DNA of 64,000 nucleotides from Chloroflexota bacterium. GTDB lineage: Bacteria > Chloroflexota > Anaerolineae > Anaerolineales > UBA4823. The DNA is taken from positions 1 through 64,000 of the forward strand of contig JAKOUW010000120.1 of the NCBI GenBank assembly GCA_029782365.1. Direction: 5' to 3'. Below are positions 38,230 through 39,743 of this stretch, in pieces (position 1 is the first letter of the stretch; every line of letters starts with the position of its first letter). Both the position numbers and the translations under genes were made by a program. Below the pieces are notes generated by a model, which searched no databases, was not told where the DNA came from, and saw nothing but the letters and a program-made list of their open reading frames with translations.

Positions 38230-38416
38230 CCAGATCTGACGATTGAAAATTTTTTCAACCATTAATTGAGTCTGCTTTTCGTCTAACCTGACGGACATCC
38301 GAACTCAACCAGGGATTGATTGCTTTTTTGGTTTTGTATGCTAGAGTTATTAACGTTAGCGCTGGTTCAGCGCAGGCATTTCTGCAGAATGTTTGGTTTT
38401 TAAAATAAGGATGGCA

Positions 38417-39703
38417 ATGATGATCGATTCGCATAAAACAGGCGCATTCATCTCTCGGATGCGCCGAGAAAAGGATTGGACCCAACTTGACCTGGCCGAA
38501 CGCTTGCATGTGACTCCACAGGCCGTATCGCGTTGGGAGACAGGCGAGTCTTTCCCTGATCTCAATACCCTGGTCCAGTTAGGCCAGCTCCTGCAGATTA
38601 GCGTGGATGACCTGTTGAAAGCAGAACGTAGTACAAACACTCCCCTGGTCCAGCCTACCCCGGCAGACCTGGTGGTGGCTGAGCTGGCGAAAGGTCGGCC
38701 TGAAAATGCCGCCCAGATGATAAAAGAGAACCAGGCCGGCTTCCAGGCGGTGGTAGATGCCGCCCCCTTGACCCGGCCGAGCACATTGGAAAAGGTGATT
38801 GCAAATATGTCTGGATTCCATCTATCCATCGAACAAATTGTCGGGCTGGCGCCCTTCGTTGGCCAGGAAATGCTCAACTCTCTAGTGGATGGCTCAGGTG
38901 ATGAGCCTATCGATCCCAACCTGGTCGCTGAACTGGCGCCGTTTTTGGGTAAAGACGGATTGGATAAAATGGTTGCTCGTGTGCTCAACGGCGAAATCGA
39001 GGCCAGCCTGTTGGCTGAATTGGCCCCCTTTCTCAGCCAGGAGAGCCTCGATCAATTGGTGGAGCATCTTCAAGATGGCAGCCTGACAGACGACCAATTG
39101 AGTGAACTGGCGCCTTTCCTGAGCAAAGATACGCTGAACAATCTGGTCAGTCGGGTGTTGACAGGAGAAATTCACAGCGAGGTATTGATCCAACTGGCGC
39201 CTTTCTTGAAGCAGGAGAGCCTGGATAAGCTGGCCCTGGGCGCGGCAGCCGATCAGATCAACCACCAATTGTTAGCCGAGCTGGCGCCGTTCTTAAGTAA
39301 AGCGACGCTTGATTCTCTGGTCGAAAAAGCTGTGGATGGCGGAATTGATGGGAGTTTGCTGATAGAATTGGCTCCTTTCCTTGGAAAGGCCGCATTGGAT
39401 AAACTTGTGATGCGGATCGAGGATGGGAAACTGGATATTTCCATGGTTGAAGAGCTGGCACCATTTCTTTCCAAAGAAACGTTGGACAAGATAGTTGACC
39501 AGGTAGCATCCGGTGGATTAGATGCCAGTCACCTGGCTGATCTTGGGCCATTCCTCAGTCGTGAAACGCTCAAGAAAGTGCTGCAGTTTGTTGAACAAGG
39601 CACGTTGAGCGCCGACGTGATCGTAGAATTGGCGCCTTTTCTTGACAAGGAAACCCTGACTGAAATTATTCGCAACAGCATGAAGAAAACCCCGCAGGAG
39701 TGA
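38417..39703 (+). CDS. XRE-type HTH protein with ~10 tandem 29-aa helical repeats
   Basis: HTH: ISRMRREKDWTQLDLAERLHVTPQAVSRWETGESFPDL; repeats LAPFLSKETLDKLVxxxxxGxLDxSLLAE from aa 152 of ORF 38393. Confidence 0.85.
   Translation: MMIDSHKTGAFISRMRREKDWTQLDLAERLHVTPQAVSRWETGESFPDLNTLVQLGQLLQISVDDLLKAERSTNTPLVQPTPADLVVAELAKGRPENAAQMIKENQAGFQAVVDAAPLTRPSTLEKVIANMSGFHLSIEQIVGLAPFVGQEMLNSLVDGSGDEPIDPNLVAELAPFLGKDGLDKMVARVLNGEIEASLLAELAPFLSQESLDQLVEHLQDGSLTDDQLSELAPFLSKDTLNNLVSRVLTGEIHSEVLIQLAPFLKQESLDKLALGAAADQINHQLLAELAPFLSKATLDSLVEKAVDGGIDGSLLIELAPFLGKAALDKLVMRIEDGKLDISMVEELAPFLSKETLDKIVDQVASGGLDASHLADLGPFLSRETLKKVLQFVEQGTLSADVIVELAPFLDKETLTEIIRNSMKKTPQE
38846..39628 (+). repeat. nine consecutive 87-bp coding units (29-aa repeats), plus a partial tenth and a diverged leading unit
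   Basis: Nine units of exactly 29 aa (38846 to 39628), no indels. Confidence 0.92.
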
Positions 39704-39710
39704 GAAAGTG

Positions 39711-39743
39711 AAGGCTGGCCAGAAAACGGCCAGCCTTTTTACT
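39711..39743. terminator. bidirectional terminator hairpin AAGGCTGGCC-AGAAAAC-GGCCAGCCTTTTT
   Basis: 10-bp perfect stem between convergent genes. Confidence 0.8.

Follow-up and report, generated by a model that had tools for sequence, protein, structure and literature searches.

An XRE-headed alpha-solenoid protein of Anaerolineae and Bacillota predicted to regulate its own gene

Analysis of the window, the whole 64,000-nucleotide stretch of Chloroflexota DNA presented above, revealed a gene that joins an XRE DNA-binding head to a long stack of 29-residue helical repeats. With moderate confidence, and reading from sequence only, we favor a one-gene module encoding an autoregulator, probably a positive one, that combines an operator-bound XRE head with an acidic solenoid for binding proteins or peptides. 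In the mechanism that we propose, the N-terminal XRE domain would bind twin TCAA-N7-TTGA operators before its own gene, presumably as a dimer, with the proximal operator near -43 and against the -35, a geometry like that of lambda cI at OR2 activating PRM. The acidic alpha-solenoid of about ten units would serve as an arm for assembly or for binding a protein or peptide and not as a nucleic-acid reader; either the state of DNA binding would depend on whether the arm is occupied, or the arm itself would be the effector. The 93-bp stretch at 38255-38347 predicts binding, autoregulation and sign, offering a ligand-free route to function. Only tentatively do we extend this to a large and so far undescribed group of positive-feedback switches, each made of one gene, whose main DNA target would be their own lambda-PRM-like promoter and whose acidic solenoid of variable length would act as sensor or effector, a family that may have dispersed among Firmicutes in part as a mobile cassette and that forms a single clade in Anaerolineae.

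The reading frame is open at 38417-39703 on the forward strand, and the coding sequence, placed by the ORF and by orthologue starts, spans 38420-39703 (427 aa; 428 aa from the start at 38417). The ATG at 38420 is probably the likelier start, because a Shine-Dalgarno-like AAGGA (38407-38411, +) precedes it by 8 nt and the nearest orthologues start with MIDS or MIDP. A Pfam search placed HTH_3 (PF01381) at aa 13-66 (38453-38614, +; E 8e-13, 48.6 bits against a cut-off of 23), including the recognition helix region TPQAVSRWETG; above-threshold domain and predicted palindromic operators beside the gene's own promoter, two sites in the window, both fit XRE / HTH_3 regulators. Behind the head come diverged solenoid units that include AAPLTRPSTLEKVIANMSGFHLSIEQIVG (38660-38845, +; AF2 helices at 82-91, 95-103, 110-118 and 121-129), then nine 29-aa LAPFL units without indels (38846-39628, +), on which the repeat finder, the family alignment and AF2 concur, and a C-terminal capping half-unit of 24 aa, LAPFLDKETLTEIIRNSMKKTPQE (39629-39700, +), which is most similar to the final unit of orthologues L025 and L031. 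The preliminary description had given this same layout of an XRE HTH, nine phased units, a partial tenth and diverged sequence before them; Pfam and the repeat finder agree with it, and the diverged units are present, but AF2 has the solenoid beginning earlier than described, near residue 82. An intrinsic terminator (39710-39738, +) with an 11-bp stem, 7 GC pairs and a T-rich tail lies directly 3' of the gene, which therefore looks monocistronic. The 45 nt 3' of the gene hold this terminator only, followed by an opposite-strand gene and no secreted-peptide gene (ORFs of at least 60 aa were covered systematically), and Rfam gave no match anywhere in the window.

Evidence for self-directed control comes from the upstream DNA. 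Alignment of this DNA from seven Anaerolineae genes revealed two conserved palindromes, in the window a predicted distal operator TCAACCATTAATTGA (38255-38269) and a predicted proximal operator TCAACCAGGGATTGA (38305-38319) that abuts the -35, and the palindrome sequence also lies upstream of the Paenibacillus genes, so it is conserved between Bacillota and Chloroflexota. The predicted promoter (38320-38347, +), aligned with six Anaerolineae orthologues, comprises a -35 TTGCTT (38320-38325) and an extended -10 TGC-TAGAGT (hexamer 38342-38347), with a spacer of 16 in the window gene and 17 in the Anaerolineae orthologues; a generic promoter scan missed it, and its elements come from the alignment. 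Across the family, TCAA-N7-TTGA occurs within 300 bp of the start in 59 of 72 members, compared with a mean of 0.74 and a maximum of 5 in dinucleotide shuffles and with 6 of 518 upstream regions of other genes at the same loci. When the spacer between TCAA and TTGA was varied from 0 to 14, 59 members had it at 7, four at 12, two at 11, one at 1 and none at the rest. Two exact sites were present in 21 members and in none of the shuffles. These counts use related, non-independent sequences; the pattern nevertheless appears repeatedly across the tree, in many separate clades. The best -10-like hexamer starts exactly 23 nt after the proximal site in 46 of 68 members, other offsets being rare, and TGnTA stands at this +23 position in 34; the predicted operator is therefore centered near -43. 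Recognition helices of the SYQAVSNW/SSW type are paired with TCAAG or TCAAT at 19 of 24 sites, and those of the SHQ/THQ/TPQ type with TCAAC in 48 of 49, which is only suggestive of helix type tracking the operator base, as clades and helices coincide.

The sign of the autoregulation would more likely be positive than negative, because most members combine a poor -35 with an extended -10, which favors activation of the kind that lambda cI exerts at PRM. A possible but less probable alternative is a negative autoregulator, in which the dimer would occlude the -35 from its position at -43 and hold protein levels low, and the solenoid would be a scaffold that has to stay at constant dosage. XRE repressors commonly self-repress, and the operator of the Anaerolineae members abuts a fair -35 (TTGNNT) that fits repression as well as activation; the TTGCTT of the window itself is not clearly weak. 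The -35 of most Bacillota members, however, is TAGGAT, TATACA or similar, accompanied by the extended -10, a combination typical of activator-dependent promoters and the point that tips the balance toward activation.

A search of ten Bacillota genomes for TTCAACCAACNNTTGATAG with at most one mismatch identified 11 sites in nine of the ten, each of them located at a copy of this gene, with zero hits for the reversed control; a looser pattern added nine sites elsewhere compared with ten in the control. The Bacillota genomes tested thus hold no excess of near-consensus sites elsewhere, a search that weak or diverged targets would escape. In the window's own genome the twin-operator pattern occurs here and in one other place, and single sites exceed expectation, which weighs against exclusive self-control: TCAACCNNNNRTTGA has 22 matches compared with 7 for the reversed control, a tally that counts two perfect palindromes twice and in which most other matches lie inside ORFs. 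The full pattern of operator plus -10 is not specific enough to delimit a regulon in AT-rich genomes. Such operators also precede XRE paralogues, including one without repeats in the window's genome; the site therefore belongs to the HTH subfamily and says nothing about the arm. Within these limits, the gene's own promoter is the strongest predicted target of the protein. Individual sites were also seen: the palindrome TCAACCTCAGGTTGA lies close upstream of a repeat-less second XRE gene in the window's genome (G000:C137:7204-7218; L175, L259), TCAACCTGTGGTTGA precedes the gene of a predicted membrane protein by 24 bp (G000:C163:130189-130203; L179) as a possible extra target, and in P. lupini a solitary operator with an extended -10 has the same layout and no long ORF behind it (L257:154-200; G486:C1:856353), suggesting a relic or a small-RNA target.

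The repeat matches no family in Pfam, NCBIfam or PDB, and our literature search found neither a LAPFL/LAPFLS repeat nor an XRE alpha-solenoid of this kind. Models of VipE, EFR3 and dihydroorotate dehydrogenase scored far under their curated cut-offs against the repeats and were set aside as repeat-composition noise; PADLOC matches (RmrA and others) cover essentially the HTH only. The repeat family thus appears undescribed in the databases and literature searched, while autoregulatory XRE proteins are a known kind. A genome scan with the single sequence found zero relatives; a scan of 84,980 species genomes with the repeat alignment recovered 97, of which 79 distinct loci were kept. They belong to Paenibacillus, Cohnella, Lederbergia, Ornithinibacillus, Butyrivibrio, other Lachnospiraceae, Clostridia, one Acholeplasma (Mycoplasmatota) and Anaerolineae; the repeat, proposed earlier to stand outside named families, does so in the databases, but it is widespread in Bacillota and so not unique to this genome. 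Nearly all relatives have the HTH, and they carry 4 to 11 units of mostly 26-30 aa, in line with the variation in repeat number that had been anticipated among relatives. The window gene shares the hallmarks of this unnamed LAPFL-repeat XRE family, namely an HTH, at least four units of 26-30 aa and TCAA-N7-TTGA upstream. The unnamed HTH proteins of Paenibacillus, Lederbergia, Lachnospiraceae and Anaerolinea (L025-L103) are true homologues with identical HTH type, repeat and operator; they differ in their unit counts, and the Paenibacillus gene sits in a cassette array. Orthologues were found in two genomes of the window genome's family and in one of another family within the class; a class search was positive in 2 of 396 genomes, so the gene is sparse there, and in a tree built on the first 175 residues the Chloroflexota members form a single clade (SH-aLRT 99). 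The genomes that were searched encode roughly one to three repeat proteins each, mostly one or two, and plasmids, phages and IMG/VR contigs yielded no relatives. Defining the repeat would annotate a group of proteins now labelled HTH only, on at least 97 genome stretches in two main phyla.

Several arrangements of the gene stand out among these relatives. Paenibacillus and Cohnella copies (L027-L045, L071, L089) lie in a block of 0.7-1.5 kb with 85-95% DNA identity, upstream DNA included, amid unrelated neighboring genes, and some genomes have two copies. Paenibacillus-type copies also occur in an integron-like array (L220, L221, L222, L266 in Bacillus sp. FJAT-28004, G489; L223 in P. baekrokdamisoli, G488) whose units measure about 0.4-3.9 kb and, within a stretch, almost all point the same way. 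At their borders stand an imperfect inverted repeat, TTGAACTA-ACGGGgAACGA-TAGTTCAA, in many cases a hairpin, and TTTATTAAGCTAACGGGCAG; tyrosine recombinases are encoded within the array or next to it, a 16-base array pattern has 54 matches in G489 and 0 for the reversed control, and we found nothing on this array in the literature. Elsewhere, LAPFL units end a protein with a coiled coil and two F5/8 type C domains (L077:4093-6432), the gene of which starts 14 bp behind a separate XRE gene, and in another protein (L094:5111-6451) four LAPFL units are followed by a second repeat type, LIDNCDxxxIPALAQALxxxMNDGxISG.

Within the window gene, the repeat finder reported 9-10 copies at an exact spacing of 87 nt with a DNA identity of 62-76%, and Tandem Repeats Finder reported no repeat because the copies have diverged. 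Identity between units by codon position is 0.52/0.67/0.32, and different codons encode 63% of the residues that are identical between units; from this we infer that the duplications are old and that the array is maintained by selection on the protein, as the preliminary description had supposed from the diverged DNA copies. In a comparison of 246 distinct family 29-mers, Pro3 never varies (it is fixed by the search pattern), Ala2 and Phe4 are nearly so, and a hydrophobic core at positions 1, 5, 10, 13, 14, 17, 22 and 27 is interspersed with variable charged positions. Units two apart are more similar than neighbors (0.42 versus 0.35; 29 of 41 proteins), so arrays appear often to have expanded by 58-aa pairs. 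Compared with L025, window units 1 and 8-10 match best in order at the two ends, which suggests fixed ends and a middle that grows. Close relatives in Paenibacillus that share about 90% DNA identity range from 5 to 9 units and form a natural series for the effect of solenoid length in a regulator.

Structure prediction with AlphaFold2, using an alignment of 30 members, yielded a mean pLDDT of 87.9 with no segment below 50 and unbroken helix pairs after the HTH from residue 82 to 424, i.e., the continuous two-helix solenoid predicted earlier; a six-unit fragment reached 84.9. A Foldseek search with the full model returned generic alpha-solenoids only, led by the HEAT repeats of the PP2A scaffold (TM by query up to 0.46). 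The regulators ComR, Rgg, PlcR and PrgX were also among the matches, and their layout of XRE HTH plus helical repeats raises the alternative of an RRNPP-like receptor, in which an imported peptide pheromone on the solenoid switches DNA binding. We regard this as unlikely: TM-scores by query are only 0.14-0.19, Pfam and NCBIfam gave no TPR family above its cut-off, the gene has neither a pheromone-like ORF beside it nor a conserved neighbor, and repeat number varies widely. A much smaller chance falls to a solenoid that reads nucleic acid in the manner of PUF or TALE proteins and makes a second DNA or RNA contact, given that the six-unit model resembles the curvature of Pumilio domains (TM by query as high as 0.63, with no significant E-value) but has no Foldseek match at E <0.001, that each unit is net negative, adding up to -27 over the array, and that no two hypervariable positions stand out as a code-like pair. 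The acidity of the arm argues instead for protein or peptide binding.

The favored autoregulator keeps the DNA-binding head on a binding arm that had been suggested at the outset, still the best reading and one sharpened by the operator evidence, and drops the suggested link to the upstream PDZ/GAF kinase: a role as output partner of that kinase is the least probable reading of all, since the two genes are adjacent and co-oriented in the window but the kinase stop (38229) lies 190 bp upstream, the gap holds the gene's own conserved promoter with its twin operators, and the kinase is absent, like the downstream gene, from all nine orthologue neighborhoods, the relatives' loci having no conserved neighbor gene.

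Compared with known systems, the window protein has its best structural neighbors in HEAT and PUF proteins, likewise stacks of helical repeats, and differs from them in its shorter unit of 29 aa, its strong acidity and the lack of a sequence match: neither the HEAT nor the PUF profile matched it in Pfam, so the likeness is structural only. With the RRNPP regulators PlcR, Rgg, ComR and PrgX it shares an HTH head on an alpha-solenoid, built here from LAPFL units of variable number and not from TPRs, with no adjoining secreted-peptide gene (ORFs of at least 60 aa covered systematically); on the features tested the protein falls outside the RRNPP group, though it may work like such a receptor. A close parallel in control lies with the autoregulators lambda cI and P22 C2, in which an XRE-fold HTH acts at tandem palindromic operators of 15-17 bp, the proximal one at about -43 by a weak -35 (OR2-PRM). 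Unlike cI, the window protein has no cI-type C-terminal domain in Pfam and carries a tandem-repeat solenoid as its arm, and unlike both, its family has no relatives in the phage or viral-contig collections. The cI-type geometry of an operator near -42 is seen in those 46 of 68 members, with the reservation on the window's -35 made above, and the window gene resembles cI and C2 in its XRE HTH, its tandem palindromes, the placement of the proximal one against the -35 and a predicted control directed at itself.
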